Positions 44,278 to 52,629 of a stretch of 61,242 nucleotides of DNA are shown piece after piece. Within the stretch, counting starts at the first letter, position 1. Each line of letters starts with the position of its first letter. This DNA is from Calditrichota bacterium (GTDB taxonomy: Bacteria; Calditrichota; Calditrichia; Calditrichales; J004). Location: assembly GCA_024277115.1 (NCBI GenBank), contig JAJRVW010000134.1:1-61242 (forward strand), written 5' to 3'. The position numbers and the translations under genes are program-made. A model generated the notes under the pieces. The model was not told the origin of the DNA, did no database searches, and was given only the letters and a program-made list of their open reading frames with translations.

Positions 44278-45087
44278 ATGGCTACGCCACATAAACCTGA
44301 AAAAGCATATAAAAACAACACTTTTCTGAATAGTAAAAATGCCCGTCCTCTGCGAATACAAGCCGAATATTTTGAACCCTTTTATCGATTTAAAGAATTT
44401 AACATCAAAGCAACCATTGTCTTTTTTGGCTCTGCGCGGATATTGCCCGAAGATGTTGCAAAAGAAAATTTGGAAGCAGCGGAAAAAATATATTTTAAAA
44501 CAGCAAATGACAAAACCAAAGCACAGTTTAATAAAGCCCAAATGGATTTAAAGATTTCCCGTTACTACGAGGATGCGATTGAACTATCTCAAAAACTTAC
44601 ATCCTGGACAATGAACGAGAAGACCAGGAAACAAAAATACTATGTATGTTCCGGTGGTGGGCCCGGTATTATGGAAGCTGCCAATAAGGGCGCAGGGCTT
44701 GCAGGAGGAAGATCGATCGGCCTTAATGTTTCATTGCCGATGGAGCAGTACCCAAACCCTTATATTACCGAAGAATTAAGCTTTGAATTTCATTATTTTT
44801 TTATGCGCAAATATTGGTTTATATATTTTGCAAAGGCAATTATTATATTCCCCGGCGGGTTTGGTACACTCGATGAATTTATGGAAGCGTTGACTCTAAT
44901 CCAGACAAAGAAAGTAAATAAACACATGTCGATTATCCTTTTTGGGCGAGAGTATTGGAACGATGTAATAAATCTTGATGCTTTGGTAAAGTGGGGAACT
45001 ATTACAGAGGATGATCTTAAACTTTTTAAATTTGTGGATACGGTAGACGAGGCATTTGAGATTTTACAAGCCGACCTACCACGGTAA
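44278..45087 (+). CDS. LOG-family protein (TIGR00730-like Rossmann fold)
   Basis: A 269-aa protein with SGGGPGIMEAANKGA and PGGFGTLDEFMEALTLIQT, the phosphoribohydrolase signature PGGxGTxxE of the LOG family. This family includes nucleotide 5'-monophosphate nucleosidases and cytokinin-activating enzymes, long misannotated as lysine decarboxylases. The N-terminal 90 residues, before the core, are longer than in the plant-type enzymes. It probably cleaves the base from a nucleoside monophosphate; the substrate is unknown. It is downstream of DUF4954 and converges on the signalling cluster, ending 12 bp from the DUF4388 stop. Confidence 0.85.
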   Translation: MATPHKPEKAYKNNTFLNSKNARPLRIQAEYFEPFYRFKEFNIKATIVFFGSARILPEDVAKENLEAAEKIYFKTANDKTKAQFNKAQMDLKISRYYEDAIELSQKLTSWTMNEKTRKQKYYVCSGGGPGIMEAANKGAGLAGGRSIGLNVSLPMEQYPNPYITEELSFEFHYFFMRKYWFIYFAKAIIIFPGGFGTLDEFMEALTLIQTKKVNKHMSIILFGREYWNDVINLDALVKWGTITEDDLKLFKFVDTVDEAFEILQADLPR

Positions 45088-45099
45088 TAGAATGCCCTA

Positions 45100-45735
45100 T
45101 TATCGACCTACAAGTTCCATCGCTTGGTCATAATATTCAAAAAAATCGAGAGATTCTAAAAATTCGTTGATTTTCTCTTCTGTGGAACGTGGTGTCCAAA
45201 AGATCATGCCAATCACGTCCCGTTCGACGGCAGCGGCCAGATCGCGCATGATTATTGCCAATAAAAGTGTATGTTTATCGCCCCATTTCTTTTTGATGTC
45301 CAACTCTACAACAAATTCCGGCAACACACTTATCTTAATTTCATGGATAATTTTAAAATATGCTTCAAAATTATGATAGCAGCGATTAATGGCCCGTTGA
45401 GTAATCCGTGCGCCTGCAAAATGGATAAAATCAGAAAGCTTCTCGTGTAGGTAAGCTACGACCAACTCTTCGTTGGAGTCTTTTGGCTTATCTTCTTCCT
45501 CCGCAAACTCCTTGCCAATTTGTTCTTCCGGCTTGGATAAATTGGGCTCTACTTTATAACTGCCCGTCTCCCACTCCAAAATAATATCCATCGCTTCATC
45601 TTCTTCTTTTCCCTCAAACTCAAGCTGTAACAACTGCCCTTTTTGATAAATAAATTGAGCATTGGCATCATTATTTTCTAATACAATTGTTCCTGTAAGC
45701 GAGTTATCTTCCGCATATTTCAACAACTGCACCAC
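45100..45735 (-). CDS. DUF4388 domain protein (C-terminal part of an interrupted gene)
   Basis: A 211-aa frame beginning at GTG 45735. The first 75 residues are a DUF4388 domain (VQLLKYAEDNSLTGTIVLE, FIYQKGQLLQLEFEGKEEDEAMDIILEWETGSYKVE). DUF4388 is found in two-component and gliding or chemosensory proteins and is often fused to receivers. The remaining about 130 residues are helical and unassigned. The frame is the same as the upstream gene, separated only by TAA (45742-45744) and two codons. The domain's usual first residues, GNLS, lie before that stop. It is therefore the second half of one cNMP-DUF4388 protein cut by a nonsense codon. Confidence 0.78.
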   Translation of the reverse strand: MVQLLKYAEDNSLTGTIVLENNDANAQFIYQKGQLLQLEFEGKEEDEAMDIILEWETGSYKVEPNLSKPEEQIGKEFAEEEDKPKDSNEELVVAYLHEKLSDFIHFAGARITQRAINRCYHNFEAYFKIIHEIKISVLPEFVVELDIKKKWGDKHTLLLAIIMRDLAAAVERDVIGMIFWTPRSTEEKINEFLESLDFFEYYDQAMELVGR

Positions 45736-45741
45736 ATGAAT

Positions 45742-46227
45742 TTAGCTCAAATTACCATGAGGCATAAACTTTTTCTCATAATATTCTTCCGATTCTTTTC
45801 GGGCGATATTGGCTTCTTTAAGACGTTGGGTTAAAAGATGGGTTAAGGTAAGTGTAATATTGGGGTTGTTCATTATCAAGGAGTCAAAAACCGAACGGCT
45901 CAATTCCCACACTTCAATATCGGTAACAGAAACAACGCTTGCAGAACGCGGTTCACCGGATATAAGTGACATCTCTCCAAAATGGTCACCCGCATCCAAA
46001 TATGACAGAATGATCTCTTGTTTCAGGTCTTCATGCTTGGCAAAAACTTTTACCCTGCCAGTTTTTATCAGATATAAACAATCGCCTGGATCACCTTCTT
46101 CGATCAATTGAGTATTGGCGGGGAAAGACCTTAATTCTAATTTTTCAGCGATGAGTTCAAGGTCTTCATCGGAGACAAAACTAAATAGCGGAATATTTTT
46201 AAGTTGCTCTAAGGATGTTTTATACAT
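45742..46227 (-). CDS. Cyclic-nucleotide-binding domain protein (N-terminal part of interrupted gene)
   Basis: 161 aa: a complete cNMP-binding domain (LKNIPLFSFVSDEDLELIAEKLE, phosphate-binding cassette FGEMSLISGEPRSASV) without a DNA-binding domain. A helix and the first residues of DUF4388 (MPHGNLS) follow, then TAA. Reading through the stop gives a 375-aa protein with the same cNMP-DUF4388 order as the gene just upstream, which ends one base before this ATG (TAA-ATG). The likely lost codon is GAA, since GNLSEI is the common DUF4388 start. Confidence 0.82.
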   Translation of the reverse strand: MYKTSLEQLKNIPLFSFVSDEDLELIAEKLELRSFPANTQLIEEGDPGDCLYLIKTGRVKVFAKHEDLKQEIILSYLDAGDHFGEMSLISGEPRSASVVSVTDIEVWELSRSVFDSLIMNNPNITLTLTHLLTQRLKEANIARKESEEYYEKKFMPHGNLS

Positions 46228-47316
46228 TTAAAGGAGTGTATTTTCAACTATTTTTACTATTTCACTAACTTCGTGTGTTTTAGTCAGCTCGGCATTTCCG
46301 AGTTGTTTTAACTCTTCTTCAAACTCAGGCTTGATAGAATCATCCGTAATAAAAATAAACGGCAAGTCATTTTCCTCTCTAATTTTATTAATAAAATCCA
46401 CGCCATTGCCGTCCGAAAGTTTTACATCTGAAATGATCAGGTCTGTTTTTTGACTGGCTGTTTTAGTGATCGAGTCGGCAATATTCGTTGCGGTGTCCAC
46501 GATATACCCCAAACCTTTAAAGGCGCGTTCTATCACCCTACGCACAACAAGGGAGTTATTGACAATTAGGATGCTTTTAACTTCGTCTTCTTCACTTTCT
46601 TCGGTTTCAATTCCAAGGCTAAGTGGGCTTACGGTAATATCAAATTTACCCTCATTCCAGCCAAGCATTGTATCCAGGGCGGCATCTTCTGTAACATCGC
46701 CCATTTTAATTGAAAGCAAATTGCCACGTTCAAAAGTAAAAATACCTTCATCACTCCCCTTAACCAAATTCATTGTACCGGTAAGGGAATTGCTTTCACA
46801 AAAACTGATCAGATCAACCAAAGCAATATCTTTTAAATCACCTTGCGGGCCTTTCCCACCTTTTGCGTCGATATCTTCCGGCTTAGGCATCTTCGCCGCT
46901 TTTTTATTGGTGTCGCTTAAACGCTGGCTTACAATCTTGGTCATGCTCAAGGCAATGGATGGAAAACGTTCCAGGATTACATCAAAATCATTTTTATAAA
47001 GGGCAAAGGTTTCGCACCCTGCTTTGGAGAGTACAGTTGCTGAACGCGGTTCATCGGTTAACAAAGACATTTCGCCAAAATAATCACCTGATTTTAACGT
47101 GGCGACAACAACCTCTTTCCCTGGTTCCCCAACCAGAACATCCGTTTCGCCACTGATGATAATATACATCTCTTCGCCCTTGTCCCCGGTTTTACAAATA
47201 GCTTCACCCGGGCTAAAGGTTTTAAACTTCAGTCGCTCTACAATAAAATCGATGCTCTCTTTTCCCAACATTCTAAATATGGGGACTTTTTTTATGATTT
47301 TTCCAATTTGGATCAT
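46228..47316 (-). CDS. cNMP-binding, DUF4388 and receiver domain protein
   Basis: A 362-aa protein with three modules: a cyclic-nucleotide-binding domain (about 1-130; GDYFGEMSLLTDEPRSATV), DUF4388 (about 158-235; GDLKDIALVDLISFCESNSLTGTMNL) and a C-terminal receiver (about 245-362). In the receiver, the DLIISDVKLSDG Asp is the phosphoacceptor, while the usual early Asp pair is replaced by ILIVNNS. It has no enzymatic or DNA-binding output. It probably integrates a cyclic nucleotide signal with a phosphorylation signal and passes it by protein contact. Confidence 0.85.
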   Translation of the reverse strand: MIQIGKIIKKVPIFRMLGKESIDFIVERLKFKTFSPGEAICKTGDKGEEMYIIISGETDVLVGEPGKEVVVATLKSGDYFGEMSLLTDEPRSATVLSKAGCETFALYKNDFDVILERFPSIALSMTKIVSQRLSDTNKKAAKMPKPEDIDAKGGKGPQGDLKDIALVDLISFCESNSLTGTMNLVKGSDEGIFTFERGNLLSIKMGDVTEDAALDTMLGWNEGKFDITVSPLSLGIETEESEEDEVKSILIVNNSLVVRRVIERAFKGLGYIVDTATNIADSITKTASQKTDLIISDVKLSDGNGVDFINKIREENDLPFIFITDDSIKPEFEEELKQLGNAELTKTHEVSEIVKIVENTLL

Positions 47317-47344
47317 TTGCTCTATTCTCCAATCCCTGAAAGTG

Positions 47345-47617
47345 CTAATAATTTATTAAATAAAAGAAAAAATATAAAACAGCGGCAAAACCAATCACTA
47401 AATACCAGACGGGCTTATGCCTGCCTTTTGGTAAACGGTCAAATTTAATTCGGGCATTATCTTCCGGCTTAAGATACGAAAAATCTCCCAGCCTTTTTTG
47501 TAGATCGAACGTTTTATACTTTTTTGTAGGTTTGAACACAATTACTTCATCTTTTCCAGAAATAATATTTATACGGCTTATTAGCCTGAATATACTTAAT
47601 CCCCTAAATTGAGTCAA
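47345..47617 (-). CDS. Small tail-anchored membrane protein
   Basis: The maximal frame is 90 codons from TTG 47617. A charged soluble region (FDLQKRLGDFSYLKPEDNARIKFD) is followed by one C-terminal transmembrane helix (VWYLVIGFAAVLYFFFYLI). The first codons coincide with a good promoter (47589-47617), so the true start is probably farther in. GTG 47539 (VFKPTKKYK) is the best in-frame candidate, giving about 64 aa. Not recognised. It precedes the two cNMP/DUF4388 genes by 28 bp and may tether them to the membrane, which is inference. Confidence 0.55.
   Translation of the reverse strand: MTQFRGLSIFRLISRINIISGKDEVIVFKPTKKYKTFDLQKRLGDFSYLKPEDNARIKFDRLPKGRHKPVWYLVIGFAAVLYFFFYLINY
47589..47617 (-). 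promoter_or_regulatory. Sigma70-type promoter for the cNMP/DUF4388 genes
   Basis: On the minus strand TTGACT (47617-47612) and TATATT (47594-47589) are exactly 17 nt apart, each five of six to consensus. It lies in the gap after the hybrid kinase and would drive the small membrane protein and both cNMP genes. Confidence 0.65.
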
Positions 47618-47684
47618 TTGGATAAACTGCTATAAATTGGTGAATACCGGTAACAGTTGGCTGCTTGAACCAAATGTATTGACC

Positions 47685-49781
47685 CTAAGAAATTACACTG
47701 GAAGTTACAGTTGATTCGGATGCAGGAAGAAGAATCTTGAAAGTTGTCCCTTTTCCCTGTTCACTCTCAACATCTATCTGGCCACCGTGTTCCCGTACAA
47801 TTTGATAAACTATGGCCAATCCTAAACCTGTTCCCGCAGATTTAGTCGTAAAAAACGGGTTAAAAATCTTCTCTTTGAGGTGATCGTCAAAACCAGAACC
47901 TGTATCACTGATTGATATTTCGATAAATTTGTCGGATAAAAGCCCCGGGGAGCGTTTTCTACGATCGATTGTAGGCACCTGTGTCTGTGCATTATCAGCC
48001 GATATGTTAAGTTCGCCATTACTATCCATCGCCTGGATACTATTTAAAATAACATTTATTAAGACCTGTTGAATCTGGTTGGCATCTACAAAAACATGCG
48101 CCAGCTCTTTGGCGTAATATTGAGAAACTTTGATATTCTTCTCACGCAATTTTCGTGTAAATAAGCCAAGGGCCTCATCCACGATTATTTTAATATGCCG
48201 GTCTTTGGGATCAGGACGGGTTGGTTTGGCATAACTAAAAAATGATCGTAACAAAGTGTCGAGCCGGTCGACCTGCCTTAAAATGCGGTAAACATATTCT
48301 AAAGTATGCGAACCCTTTGGCAATTCTTCTTCCATATTCTCGGCCATGGCCTTTATGCCTGCCAACGGATTGCGAATCTCATGGGCAATCCCGGAACTTA
48401 AAATACCGAGAGAGGCCATTCGGTCCATTCGGATTATTTCGGCCTGGATTCGTTTTGTCTGGGATATTTCTGAAAAGACCAGGATATAATATTTTTTGTT
48501 ATAATCCCACTCCATGGTATAAATGGAATAACCCACATAAAAATCTGTTTCACGATTAAGATGGATATGAATTTCTTTGCGTACAACCGGAAAATCGCCA
48601 AGTTCAATCGAGTTGTTTATCTGTTCAAAAGCGACTTCGTCAAACATTTCTTTTAAGGTTGCCGGTTTCCTGTCGGAGCGCAGTATTGTGTTTGATGCCG
48701 GATTATAATAATGGATATTTAAAATATCATCGAAAATGACTAATCCAAAGTCAACGGCGGAAAGGACCTTTTCAAGTAACAAAGAGCTCTTGGCAACAGA
48801 ATCGATCGGCATTTTTTGTAAGAATTTATTGGCATTTTCTTTACCGATTATTTCTAACATTTCTAAATGATAAATTATTTTTTGAGCTGCAATTGTGGTG
48901 AAGGCCAAATCATTTTCTGAGAAATCGTTACGATAGAGTTTGTTGATTAAAATAAAACAGGCAACAGGTTGGTGCAGCAAAACGAGCGGTGTCACAAGCA
49001 TACCGGAAATTTTATACCCCAAAACTTCTTCAATTTCCTGCACAAACGAGTCTGCAAGTAATTCATTTTCAAAAATTAGTGGATAGTTTCGGGTGAGTAA
49101 TTCCTTGATTTTTGATGCCGTAACAGATATTGATAACTCCCGGCTGACTTCTTTCCCGTCCTGGCTATAGATTTTAATTGTGAACGTTTGTTTTTCTTCG
49201 CTGTAAATGCCAACTACACACATCTCTACAGCAAGGGCGAGCTCCAGTTTTTTTACAAAACCTGTCTGGAGATAATTTAAAAGTTCATCTTTATTTTTAA
49301 TCTCGGTAACCCGGCTGAACTCTAAAAGCTCATCCATATAAGAGATAAGTTTCTTCTCGCCATCAACAATATCTTTATATAAATTTACACGGCGTTCCAA
49401 ACTGTTTAGATGGATCGAATTATTTATTTCGGAAATCAACAAATACTTATTAACGGGCTCGATAAGCACCCTGTTCAAAGGGATTTTATAAAGTTGCTGG
49501 ATGAGGGCTTGCTGGGTATTGGAAATTAAAAAAATAAAAGGCAGGTTTTGATATTTTTTCTGAGACCTGAGCGGTTCAATGATCCGATAATCAAAATTAT
49601 CGTACGACGAGGCATCGATTATCAGAAGGTCAGGATTCTCTTCAATAAAGATTTCCTGAAATGCCTGATTAAATGTTCCTGCTATAACTTTATTGGTAGG
49701 GTCTACAAGGAGGCCTAAATATTTATTAAGCCGTTCCTCATTATTCGAAATCAGGCAAATTGAAATTTGTCGCGTATCCAT
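47685..49781 (-). CDS. Receiver-GAF-PAS-histidine kinase
   Basis: A 698-aa soluble kinase. It has an N-terminal receiver-like domain (about 1-125, LLIIDASS Asp kept, the conserved Lys replaced near LIEPVNK), a coiled coil, a GAF domain (about 145-320) and a PAS domain (about 335-450). An NtrB-type HisKA (GIAHEIRNPLAGIK, His near 475) and HATPase_c (VILNSIQAM, DTGSGF, GTGLGLAIV) complete it. Its genetic partners are the Crp/Fnr regulator 7 bp upstream and the receiver-containing cNMP protein downstream, a plausible phosphorylation target. The altered receiver suggests phosphorylation-independent use of that domain. Confidence 0.87.
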   Translation of the reverse strand: MDTRQISICLISNNEERLNKYLGLLVDPTNKVIAGTFNQAFQEIFIEENPDLLIIDASSYDNFDYRIIEPLRSQKKYQNLPFIFLISNTQQALIQQLYKIPLNRVLIEPVNKYLLISEINNSIHLNSLERRVNLYKDIVDGEKKLISYMDELLEFSRVTEIKNKDELLNYLQTGFVKKLELALAVEMCVVGIYSEEKQTFTIKIYSQDGKEVSRELSISVTASKIKELLTRNYPLIFENELLADSFVQEIEEVLGYKISGMLVTPLVLLHQPVACFILINKLYRNDFSENDLAFTTIAAQKIIYHLEMLEIIGKENANKFLQKMPIDSVAKSSLLLEKVLSAVDFGLVIFDDILNIHYYNPASNTILRSDRKPATLKEMFDEVAFEQINNSIELGDFPVVRKEIHIHLNRETDFYVGYSIYTMEWDYNKKYYILVFSEISQTKRIQAEIIRMDRMASLGILSSGIAHEIRNPLAGIKAMAENMEEELPKGSHTLEYVYRILRQVDRLDTLLRSFFSYAKPTRPDPKDRHIKIIVDEALGLFTRKLREKNIKVSQYYAKELAHVFVDANQIQQVLINVILNSIQAMDSNGELNISADNAQTQVPTIDRRKRSPGLLSDKFIEISISDTGSGFDDHLKEKIFNPFFTTKSAGTGLGLAIVYQIVREHGGQIDVESEQGKGTTFKILLPASESTVTSSVIS

Positions 49782-49788
49782 ATGTTAG

Positions 49789-50466
49789 TTATGAAAAATC
49801 CTGTCTGAACCGGTCGTATTCTAAAATGATTAATTTGCTTCCTTCTTTTTTAACATACCCTAACTGGCTTAAAGATTTGATTACCCGGGCAATAGTTTCG
49901 CGGCTTGTACCGGCCATATTTGCCAGGTCTTGCTGTGGCGGCAGGCTGGATATTTCTACCTGGCCATGCTTAATTGTGCCCGAATCATCCGCAATCCGCA
50001 AGATTGTAGAAGCCACCCTGCCCAATGCATTTTGCAGGGAAAGGCTTTTAATTTGAGAGTCGCTGCGCCTAAGCCTGTGTGCAAGTTCTTTTAAAAGATT
50101 AATTGCCACCTGTGGATAATCGTATAGCATTTGTAAAAAGTTTTCGCGGCGAACAATGAGCATTTGTGTATCCTCAAGTGTAACAGCGTTGGCGCTACGG
50201 GTTTGCCCATCCAAAATAGACATCTCACCAAAAAAATCACCGTCACATAAAATGGATAAAATAACTTCTCTTCCTTCATCACTAATCCGCGATATCTTAA
50301 CCCGCCCGTCAAGAATTACAAACATGGTAGAACCGATTTCTTCTTCGATTAAAACCATGTTGTCTTTTTTATAAACTTGTCTAACCGTTTGCTTCGAAAT
50401 GTTTATCAGCTCTTCCTCACTAAGCTCCGAAAACAAGGGTATAGAACTTAAAAGCTCAATATCCAT
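49789..50466 (-). CDS. Crp/Fnr-family transcriptional regulator
   Basis: A 225-aa protein: N-terminal cyclic-nucleotide-binding-like domain (DGDFFGEMSILDGQTRSANAV) and C-terminal HTH_Crp (about 150-220; LPPQQDLANMAGTSRETIARVIKSLSQLGYV). There are no N-terminal cysteines for an Fnr Fe-S cluster. The Arg and Glu of the phosphate-binding cassette favour cAMP or another cyclic nucleotide. GAGG precedes ATG 50466. It lies 8 bp after the SPOR gene and 7 bp before the hybrid kinase, so lapA-SPOR-crp-kinase probably form one operon. Confidence 0.88.
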   Translation of the reverse strand: MDIELLSSIPLFSELSEEELINISKQTVRQVYKKDNMVLIEEEIGSTMFVILDGRVKISRISDEGREVILSILCDGDFFGEMSILDGQTRSANAVTLEDTQMLIVRRENFLQMLYDYPQVAINLLKELAHRLRRSDSQIKSLSLQNALGRVASTILRIADDSGTIKHGQVEISSLPPQQDLANMAGTSRETIARVIKSLSQLGYVKKEGSKLIILEYDRFRQDFS

Positions 50467-50474
50467 TTATATCC

Positions 50475-51119
50475 TCATTCTTTTATTATTTTATAATCAA
50501 GGTGATAGGTGTGTTTTAGTTCGTCAGCAAATTTTAATGTCTGTTTAAAATTTTGCTTACCAATAACCCAAACACAAAACAATTCTTTATTTTTTACATG
50601 TCTTATTTTAATTATGGATGCCACTTTTTGTGTCGACAGCATTTTGCGCATCTGTTCGGCATTTTCTTTTAACCCAAAGGCACCCACCTGTATAAATAAC
50701 TTTTCGGTATCAACAACTTCCGGTCGAAAGGGTTGTTTTGTGCTGCCGATTGTTTCAATCAGCTGGCGATTTTCTACCAGGTACTTTTCATAATCTGAAG
50801 CAGTGCTGTAATATCCACGGGCATAATAATAATCTTTAAGCCTTTCTCCACTAAAATATTTTAACTTGCCATTGTAATTCTGGAAGAGGTCTTTATACGT
50901 CGCAAACGCTTTTTCGGCATCCTTATTATATAAAGCGCTAAAAAATAATTGATCGGCTTTTGATAACTTAGCTTTAACCTTTAGATAGTTTTCTTTAAGG
51001 GCAATAAAATCTTTGTCTTGATATAACCGGAACAAGCGCGCGGCATCCTGTCCAAAAGAGGGTATGGAAAACATGATAGAAATTATTAAAACCTTAGATA
51101 TTATCATCTTAATAAACAT
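50475..51119 (-). CDS. SPOR-domain secreted protein
   Basis: A 214-aa protein with a signal peptide (cleavage near IPSFGQ), a helical TPR-like middle (about 25-125) and a C-terminal SPOR domain (about 135-212; KLFIQVGAFGLKENAEQMRKML). SPOR domains bind denuded peptidoglycan glycan strands, often at division sites. ATG 51119 or 51107 (MIISKVLI) are both possible starts. Confidence 0.8.
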   Translation of the reverse strand: MFIKMIISKVLIISIMFSIPSFGQDAARLFRLYQDKDFIALKENYLKVKAKLSKADQLFFSALYNKDAEKAFATYKDLFQNYNGKLKYFSGERLKDYYYARGYYSTASDYEKYLVENRQLIETIGSTKQPFRPEVVDTEKLFIQVGAFGLKENAEQMRKMLSTQKVASIIKIRHVKNKELFCVWVIGKQNFKQTLKFADELKHTYHLDYKIIKE

Positions 51120-51148
51120 ATTTTATTTCTCTTTAGGCAAGCTAAAAA

Positions 51149-51493
51149 CTATTTTTCAGTAATTGGATTATCTGAAGTATTGTCATCAGACGATTCTATC
51201 GACTTAATATCGTTAGATTTACTTTTTAATTCTGATAGTTCTGCTAATAGGGCGTTAATCTGCTTCTTCAATTGAAAGTGTTCTTTTTTAGATTTGGCCA
51301 ATTGGATCAGAAAAAAAAGTATCCCAAAGGCAAAACCAATAAACAGTAAAGCGAATGTTACGGTTATCAGGTTCACTTGTTCAAATTTTGTAAAAAACAA
51401 ATCAATCTGAACAGTTTGCCCAACATTTAAAGAAAAAACCCACAGCACAAAAAAGGCCAAAATTATCCAAAAAATCGTGATAACTAAACGCAT
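51149..51493 (-). CDS. LapA-domain (DUF1049) membrane protein
   Basis: A 114-aa protein with two transmembrane helices (about 3-22 and 42-64; NVGQTVQIDLFF between them is typical of LapA/DUF1049) and a cytoplasmic coiled-coil tail (about 68-95). In E. coli the homologous LapA works with LapB in LPS regulation; here the family assignment is by pattern only. It is the first gene of the SPOR-crp-kinase unit. Confidence 0.75.
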   Translation of the reverse strand: MRLVITIFWIILAFFVLWVFSLNVGQTVQIDLFFTKFEQVNLITVTFALLFIGFAFGILFFLIQLAKSKKEHFQLKKQINALLAELSELKSKSNDIKSIESSDDNTSDNPITEK

Positions 51494-51612: not shown

Positions 51613-52629
51613 TTAAACAAGCTCGGCAAATTCCATATCTTCCACTAGCTCTAAAAACTTATTAAAAAGAAATGGGTCCCATTTACCTTTTATTGTTTCA
51701 TTGTCCATAATACCAAGTGTTCTGTCGACTGACATAGACGGGCGATAGGAACGGGTTGTGGTTAAGGCATCATAACAATCAACAATACCCATAATACGTG
51801 CGTGGATAGGGATGTCACTCCCTTTAAGGCCTGCCGGATATCCGCTGCCATTATATTTTTCGTGATGATGTAGAATTACCGGTAGAATGGGTTTTAAGCT
51901 TTTTAGTGGGGCACAAATACGTTCGCCTTCTGCAGGGTGTGTTTTAATAATCTCAAATTCTTCGTCAGATAAAGGGCCTTCTTTTTGTAAAATTGAATCC
52001 TGAATGGCAATTTTACCTATATCATGTAAAATACCGCCACGTCTTAATATCACCAAATCACTTTCGGACATACTTATCTTACGCCCCAATTTAGTGCTCA
52101 TTATCGAAAGCCGCTCCGAATGCCCCTCGGTATATTTGTCTTTTGCTTCTACTGTGCGTGCAAGGCTAAAAATAATCTGTTCGGCATGGTCGAGCTCGCT
52201 GATGTAGGTGTGTAATTGCAGCAAATTTCGCACACGGGCACGTAATTCAAAAATATTAAACGGCTTTGAGATAAAATCATCCACACCAATCTGATAGCCG
52301 CGCAAACGTTCATCCTGGCCATCCAGAGCAGTAAGCATAATAATGGGAATCAGGCGGGTTTTCTCATTTTGTTTTAATATTTCAGCAACTTCAAATCCAT
52401 TTTTGCCTGGCATCATCACATCCAGTAAAATGATATTTGGATCAATTTTCTCAATTAATTCTAACGCATCATCACCATTAAGCGCTTTGAATATTTCATA
52501 CTTAAAATCTTCAAGAATTTGCTCAACCGTCTCAATGTTTTCTGGCGAATCATCAACAATAAGTATTTTTGAGTTTGGGTTTATGAGCGCTGATTGTGCA
52601 AATTTGTTTATCATTTTTTTGGGTGTCAC
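51613..52629 (-). CDS. Response regulator with intact HD-GYP domain
   Basis: A 338-aa protein: receiver (phosphoacceptor Asp70 in IILLDVMMP, Lys at SKPF) followed by an HD-GYP domain with the expected residues (GHSERL, HDIGK at 202-206, HPAEGE, HHHEKYNGSGYP, ADCYDALT-like VDCYDALTT). It should hydrolyse cyclic di-GMP under control of phosphorylation. The frame opens at GTG 52629; ATG 52614 is an alternative. It begins 13 bp after korB ends, so it may be read from the kor promoter. Confidence 0.87.
   Translation of the reverse strand: MTPKKMINKFAQSALINPNSKILIVDDSPENIETVEQILEDFKYEIFKALNGDDALELIEKIDPNIILLDVMMPGKNGFEVAEILKQNEKTRLIPIIMLTALDGQDERLRGYQIGVDDFISKPFNIFELRARVRNLLQLHTYISELDHAEQIIFSLARTVEAKDKYTEGHSERLSIMSTKLGRKISMSESDLVILRRGGILHDIGKIAIQDSILQKEGPLSDEEFEIIKTHPAEGERICAPLKSLKPILPVILHHHEKYNGSGYPAGLKGSDIPIHARIMGIVDCYDALTTTRSYRPSMSVDRTLGIMDNETIKGKWDPFLFNKFLELVEDMEFAELV

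Follow-up and report, generated by a model that had tools for sequence, protein, structure and literature searches.

A Calditrichota gene cluster probably formed of two adjoining blocks, one of them a conserved trio around a predicted cyclic-nucleotide-binding pseudo-receiver protein

A compact gene cluster of a Calditrichota bacterium, at positions 45100-51493 of contig JAJRVW010000134.1 (61,242 bases, the whole of which is called the window here, from a 4.97 Mb draft genome of 255 contigs), very probably consists of two conserved and separately inherited blocks that adjoin each other. Block 1, comprising LapA, LapB where it is kept, SPOR, a Crp-type regulator and a histidine kinase, is one unit. 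Block 2 is a separate unit and the novel part of the locus, and comprises a small tail-anchored protein (TA), a protein joining a cyclic nucleotide monophosphate (cNMP)-binding domain to DUF4388 and a pseudo-receiver (CDR), and a domain of about 125 amino acids (CTD) that is found either alone or as the end of a second cNMP-DUF4388 protein (CDx). We put a rough probability of 0.45 on the reading that block 2, from the domains predicted in it, would serve as a membrane-docked, cyclic-nucleotide-gated, phosphorylation-independent adaptor beside a separate block 1. Comparisons were made with 40 Calditrichota genomes, all from one class and assigned to families labelled f1 to f6 (the window belongs to f1), and with 299 genomes outside the phylum.

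Results

TA (47345-47539, minus strand) is a small basic protein with a single C-terminal transmembrane segment, 64 amino acids long when counted from a GTG at 47539, and is followed by CDR (46228-47316, minus strand; 362 amino acids), in which Pfam recognizes the cNMP-binding domain, DUF4388 and the receiver, all three over their gathering scores. Full-length CDR was detected at E <= 1e-25, with five candidates scored per genome, in 35 of the 40 class genomes and in one of the 299 genomes outside the phylum (G092), and the five class genomes lacking it are 72-88% complete. TA lies directly upstream of CDR (within about 280 nucleotides, nt) in all 34 class loci that could be tested and also in G092; fifteen of these loci, G092 included, were outside the training set of the profile, and the locus of G008, where CDR lies 74 bases from a contig end, was untestable. 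The gene for CTD or CDx comes next after CDR in 32 of 34 testable class loci, the contig of G019 ending after CDR.

The surroundings of this trio change from family to family. The kinase gene precedes it in f1, an OPT gene in f2 and in two f4 loci, and a tyrosine-recombinase gene in eight of ten f5 and f6 loci; serS follows it in 6/6 f5 loci and mutL in 3/4 f6 loci, most of these f5/f6 calls having been made by eye and four genes checked by Pfam, and the neighbours in f3 differ from those in the other families. That the trio is kept through such changes is the strongest evidence for it as a unit. G006, a single contig of 4.98 Mb, carries the trio, and searches among plasmids returned no record covering 80% of CDR and a single DUF4388 protein from Deinococcus.

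The sequence-only reading of this stretch had regarded the entire cluster as a possible membrane-linked complex, and conservation of gene order among relatives was one of the checks that it proposed; its refuting condition, an order shared with no relative, does not hold. The order LapA-SPOR-Crp-kinase-TA-CDR-CDx is intact in 5/5 other f1 genomes and recurs in eight of the 13 trio-bearing f2 genomes (in G019 only up to CDR), so the cluster is more than a chance arrangement. Four of these eight f2 loci have an extra gene between LapA and SPOR, and kinase and TA are always separated by the gene for an OPT transporter and often also by one of TauE type (identities checked with Pfam in G006 and assigned by resemblance in the other genomes). 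Kinase and TA also share one short contig in G008.

Only in f1 and f2 are the two blocks near neighbours. Crp and the best kinase match are on the same contig in all 36 genomes that have this Crp, the window included, at a distance of at most about 1.25 kb, which corresponds in the loci read to the unmatched N-terminus of the kinase. On the single contig of G029, 2.09 Mb separate CDR (904 kb) from Crp (2,997 kb). No kinase or Crp match was found in the 13 CDR loci from f3, f5 and f6 (6.4-19 kb read in each), and no CDR in the 13 kb (G024) or 6.8 kb (G026) of contig behind the kinase in f4. Within f2 the contigs of G012 and G017 break off between kinase and TA, which gives minimum distances of 5.7 kb and 6.1 kb, respectively. 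Gap lengths in f1, f2 and f4, measured with mechanically called TA starts, follow the same division: SPOR, Crp and kinase are separated by 3-18 nt, TA and CDR by 13-33 nt, and CDR and CDx by -8 to 35 nt, and no junction of the cluster is looser than that between kinase and TA, which ranges from 11 nt to 3.7 kb. The reading of the whole cluster as one complex was rejected because the blocks are separate in other families. The kinase, Crp, SPOR and LapA form a block of their own; that they are parts of the same device is unsupported, and so is the envelope-related output earlier suggested by SPOR and LapA.

The cNMP-binding domains of block 2 give strong Pfam matches (PF00027, E-values 1.4e-21 for CDR and 1.5e-25 for CDx), and the phosphate-binding cassette motif FGE...RSA is present in 36/36 CDR, 21/21 CDx and 14/14 Crp sequences, and the cNMP domain of CDR is apparently competent. 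Class III cyclase domains, found in 40/40 genomes of the phylum with five in that of the window, bear only circumstantially on any binding of cyclic AMP (cAMP) or cyclic GMP. The sequence-only reading described the cNMP-DUF4388 proteins as lacking a DNA-binding output, and this agrees with our finding no such domain in them with Pfam at E 0.1.

The receiver of CDR, although readily recognized (PF00072, 1.3e-15), lacks an acidic residue at both Mg2+ positions in all 36 orthologues, the window having N-N; position one is N in 31, S in four and I in one, and position two N in 31, H in two, A in two and T in one. Because the acidic pair is absent throughout, this domain is a pseudo-receiver in the sense defined in a recent review (PMC12632262). 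The acceptor Asp is present in 36/36, the Thr/Ser in 28/36 and the Lys in 19/36, the window having D, T and K. Loss of the acidic pair makes phosphorylation by the neighbouring kinase unlikely, and the earlier suggestions that the kinase could phosphorylate CDR and that the cluster may read a phosphorylation state are unsupported.

DUF4388 scores 32.7 bits in CDR (PF14332, gathering score 25 bits), and a sequence search of the PDB with another DUF4388 of the window genome yielded nothing useful. Other DUF4388 proteins of this genome (L070, L071, L076) were described by eye: one combines DUF4388 with a receiver-like stretch and an additional C-terminal part, another is a DUF4388 with a possibly roadblock-like tail, and a third is a receiver-DUF4388 protein whose large C-terminal region has a metallo-beta-lactamase-like look.

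The mechanical open reading frame of TA spans 47345-47617, and the GTG at 47539 is its probable true start judging from the homologues. All 23 aligned rows show a hydrophobic segment of 19 residues at the C-terminal end and an N-terminal tail with a net charge of +5 to +12, so that TA has the features of a tail anchor, with a single C-terminal transmembrane segment and a predicted cytosolic tail. Neither Pfam nor NCBIfam has a family that it matches at the cut-offs used. Of the membrane-linked complex envisaged earlier, the phosphorylation input is unsupported, but the constant position of TA upstream of CDR makes a membrane-linked reader of cyclic nucleotide plausible. In TA loci from other phyla, a recombinase gene and an M50-type gene adjoin in two of the five read (L132 by Pfam, L134 by eye); the occurrence of TA without CDR there indicates that TA is probably older than the pairing.

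CTD (45103-45477, minus strand, located with profile A1) was not mentioned in the sequence-only reading. Its profile matches 34 of the 40 genomes of the phylum: in 22 genomes, belonging to f1, f2 and f4, it forms the C-terminal end of CDx, and in 12 others, from f3, f5 and f6, it has an open frame to itself of 130-155 residues. Eleven of these 12 frames lie behind CDR and share its contig and strand (the twelfth is that of G038, where CDR was not found). CTD has no significant match to a Pfam family or to a PDB sequence, nor any NCBIfam match when the window frame and four standalone proteins were searched. A model built from four sequences (pLDDT 81, pTM 0.79) has the order H-H-E-E-H-H-H of helices (H) and strands (E) and gives no Foldseek match at E <= 0.001 and a best VIA comparison of Z 6.0 (root-mean-square deviation (rmsd) 3.0, 77 residues aligned). 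These searches found no known relative, which is not proof of a new fold. The idea that CTD is a degenerate receiver is unsupported, given this order of elements and the absence of a fold match.

In relatives, CDx is one protein of about 375 residues. The window differs in that an in-frame TAA (45742-45744) at the beginning of DUF4388 splits the gene into two frames on the minus strand, part 1 (45742-46227), with the cNMP-binding domain identified by Pfam, and part 2 (45100-45735), which starts at a GTG in the same frame and holds the remainder of DUF4388 and CTD. The gene list of the sequence-only reading, which comprised LapA, SPOR, a Crp/Fnr regulator, a kinase, TA, CDR and a second cNMP-DUF4388 protein, thus stands except that the last is not one open frame. 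Read across the stop, DUF4388 scores 28.4 bits, above the cut-off of 25; the downstream frame alone scores 16.8, below it.

We consider it probable that this TAA is due to faulty assembly or to recent loss of function, and not to a split gene that still works. The stop is confined to the window: in the 20 other aligned CDx sequences (of 21) the codon is a sense one, GAA in the case of the nearest relative (G001); the source genome is a draft; and a cyclase-domain frame of the same assembly (G000:C51:4052-4495) contains an internal TAG, a second nonsense codon. On the other side, the 211 codons beyond the TAA are free of further stops, a GTG opens six bases after it, and the ratio of nonsynonymous substitution rates (dN) after and before the stop, 1.6 (0.205/0.128), falls inside the range given by five intact pairs (1.3-2.7); with saturated synonymous rates this comparison has little power for a recent event. 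A conserved recoded stop was considered and rejected, as the TAA flagged in G026 proved not to be internal.

As to whether the duplication of cNMP-DUF4388 was ancient or lineage-specific, the tree, which carries long-branch warnings, sets CDR and CDx apart from Crp as sisters (99/98 and 96/92), CDx being placed next to all CDR together (96/92), and an approximately unbiased test did not reject a duplication inside the lineage of f1, f2 and f4 (p 0.168). The simplest account of the distribution would be that a standalone CTD was fused to a copy of the cNMP-DUF4388 part. A model of full CDx, made from the L031 orthologue, was poor (pLDDT 67, pTM 0.36), and the fold search with it was filled by cNMP chains.

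Block 1 starts with a LapA-domain membrane protein (51149-51493; PF06305, 4e-12), followed by a SPOR-domain protein (50475-51119; PF05036, 1.5e-5), a Crp/Fnr-type transcription regulator (49789-50466; cNMP-binding and HTH_Crp_2 domains by Pfam) and the histidine kinase (47685-49781), all on the minus strand. The window Crp was found in 36/40 genomes, with 67-95% identity in 34 others plus one partial sequence. SPOR lies directly before Crp with a gap of 3-9 nt in 14 measured loci, and precedes it in 12 of 15 additional loci read. Some relatives have a gene for a LapB-like TPR protein between LapA and SPOR (the f2, f4 and f6 examples matched LapB below the cut-off, those of f3 and f5 were recognized by eye); it is absent from the window (51119-51149), from the other f1 loci and from some f2 loci, where LapA and SPOR are -41 to 54 nt apart.

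The kinase had been described as a receiver-GAF-PAS protein. Pfam confirms HisKA and HATPase_c and gives a weak PAS match (0.017), but neither the receiver nor the GAF region is matched at E 0.1; a degenerate receiver-like N-terminus is visible by eye, and the H-box HEIRNPL is intact in 13/13 aligned sequences. The kinase does not form a classical two-component pair with either neighbour, Crp upstream having no receiver and the CDR receiver downstream having no DD pair. The only receiver gene directly adjoining it in the window is that of the CDR pseudo-receiver. A canonical receiver occurs in the REC-HD-GYP protein (51613-52629, minus strand; Pfam, with the receiver residues read directly), whose gene lies upstream of LapA, just beyond the 45100-51493 interval, and is separated from the kinase by LapA, SPOR and Crp. 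In G010 the match to the kinase gene is divided between two open frames (L043:10460-12585) and in G026 the OPT gene is read as two adjacent ones (L054:5371-7380), each being either a draft error or a real break. The OPT frame of G011 (L044:7085-9100) contains FFFKQKTAYDI, which resembles a translated sequencing adapter and is likely an assembly artefact.

Transcription on the minus strand follows the order KorA, KorB, REC-HD-GYP, LapA, SPOR, Crp, histidine kinase, TA, CDR, CDx, and a lysine-decarboxylase/LOG-type gene (44278-45087) faces the cluster. A promoter scan gave a match of 10/12 positions at 47617-47589 on the minus strand, between kinase and TA; this match is weak, as 30 sites were found against 20 expected.

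Discussion

All parts of the cluster except CTD and TA are of known kinds; what is new, as far as our searches go, is that they are combined in this way, that one phylum has conserved the arrangement throughout, and that its receiver is without a Mg2+ site. The literature search returned no paper joining the PATAN domain, or Caldithrix, with cyclic nucleotide-binding; DUF4388 appeared in one paper, in a gene list, and PF14332, IPR025497 and "PatA-like N-terminal" gave no result. The PATAN-receiver regulators of cyanobacteria (PixG, PixE, PilG and LsiR) resemble CDR in joining a PATAN-type domain to a receiver with no DNA-binding output. Unlike these, CDR has a cNMP domain at its N-terminus and a pseudo-receiver, and neither a light receptor nor chemotaxis genes were seen near it. 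FrzS of Myxococcus xanthus is similar in that its receiver fold reportedly works by other means than ordinary phosphorylation; FrzS lacks the acceptor Asp, whereas CDR keeps the Asp and lacks the Mg2+ pair, and the other domains differ. The cNMP domains are of the CRP/PKA type (GlxR, MtbCRP, PKG), which the CDR profile matches and to which the L031 CDx model is close (Z 15.8, rmsd 2.5 and 139 residues aligned against 3r6s), yet CDR and CDx have neither a helix-turn-helix nor a kinase output and are joined to DUF4388 instead.

For block 1, the lapAB locus known from E. coli offers a comparison: here too there is a LapA_dom gene, behind which some relatives have a gene for a TPR protein with LapB as its best match, and two of the three LapB-like proteins examined contain Zn_ribbon_LapB. 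Block 1 differs in that the LapB matches stay below the NCBIfam cut-offs, that the window has no LapB-like gene between LapA and SPOR, and that SPOR, Crp and the kinase follow.

The mechanism that we suggest for block 2, taken alone, is put forward tentatively. A cyclic nucleotide, most likely cAMP from the class III cyclases, would bind the cNMP domains of CDR and CDx; TA would be anchored in the inner membrane through its C-terminal segment, and with its basic cytosolic tail could dock or recruit CDR; the unphosphorylated pseudo-receiver would act as a fixed surface for protein interaction; and DUF4388, presumably a PATAN-type domain, would together with CTD relay the signal to partner machinery, which might be a motor of the type IV pilus type, as with PATAN proteins elsewhere.

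How far this is to be preferred depends on the alternatives. If the whole cluster were one complex, in which the kinase phosphorylates CDR, two inputs are integrated and SPOR and LapA provide an envelope output, the order conserved in f1, and in f2 despite the inserted transporter genes, would be expected, as would the invariant acceptor Asp; the missing acidic pair, the company of the kinase with Crp instead of CDR outside f1 and f2, and the looseness of the kinase-TA junction make this explanation highly improbable. A more specific variant, in which the ligand would let DUF4388 engage a PilB-type ATPase so that block 2 specifically controls a motor resembling, or related to, that of type IV pili, draws on the binding of PATAN receivers to the PilB motor in Synechocystis (PMC10519157, PMC7690835) and on PilB-like ATPase matches in 37 of the 40 genomes of the phylum. 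None of these matches exceeds the PilB cut-off, however, and no pilus gene was noticed by eye beside the trio in the loci read; since PilB-type matches are also obtained from controls, they are too general to show pili, pilus output is only a possibility, and we hold this variant to be unlikely. The recombinase, serS and mutL genes around the trio in f5 and f6, together with the two other-phylum TA loci near a recombinase and an M50-type gene, could instead point to a service in housekeeping, for example a membrane-linked checkpoint of growth or chromosome processing, but the trio stays together outside such a context in f1, f2, f3 and f4, which renders this improbable. Rather unlikely, finally, is the fullest form of our own proposal, an undescribed phylum-wide device made of a docking TA, a gated DUF4388 adaptor with a frozen, Mg2+-less receiver and a CTD output, with CDx as a paired sensor that would have been re-split inside DUF4388 in the window species and still be translated as two coupled proteins.

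Several observations weigh against the docked adaptor itself and should temper its interpretation. A few genomes outside the phylum have TA but no full-length CDR; TA thus has a role independent of CDR, and the adjacency of the two may be partly historical. CTD is absent in G025 and G030, and some f5 loci have wider gaps, of about 280 nt between TA and CDR (G032) and about 310 nt between CDR and CTD (G028). The invariant acceptor Asp, with T and K often kept, as in the window, might still allow phosphorylation by another route. DUF4388 is the PATAN domain by presumption, which also bears on the pilus variant, and 7 of 14 control genomes, including E. coli and B. subtilis, give PilB-type matches as well. 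As to the separation of the blocks, the f4 genome G022 is uninformative, both of its contigs ending at the junction.

The locus shows that a conserved-looking cluster can be two modules set side by side. To our knowledge, few bacterial targets of cyclic nucleotides other than transcription factors have been described. How pseudo-receivers switch is called a mystery in a recent review (PMC12632262). A protein of the CDR type beside a membrane anchor would make both cyclic-nucleotide targets of this other kind and the switching of pseudo-receivers open to experiment.

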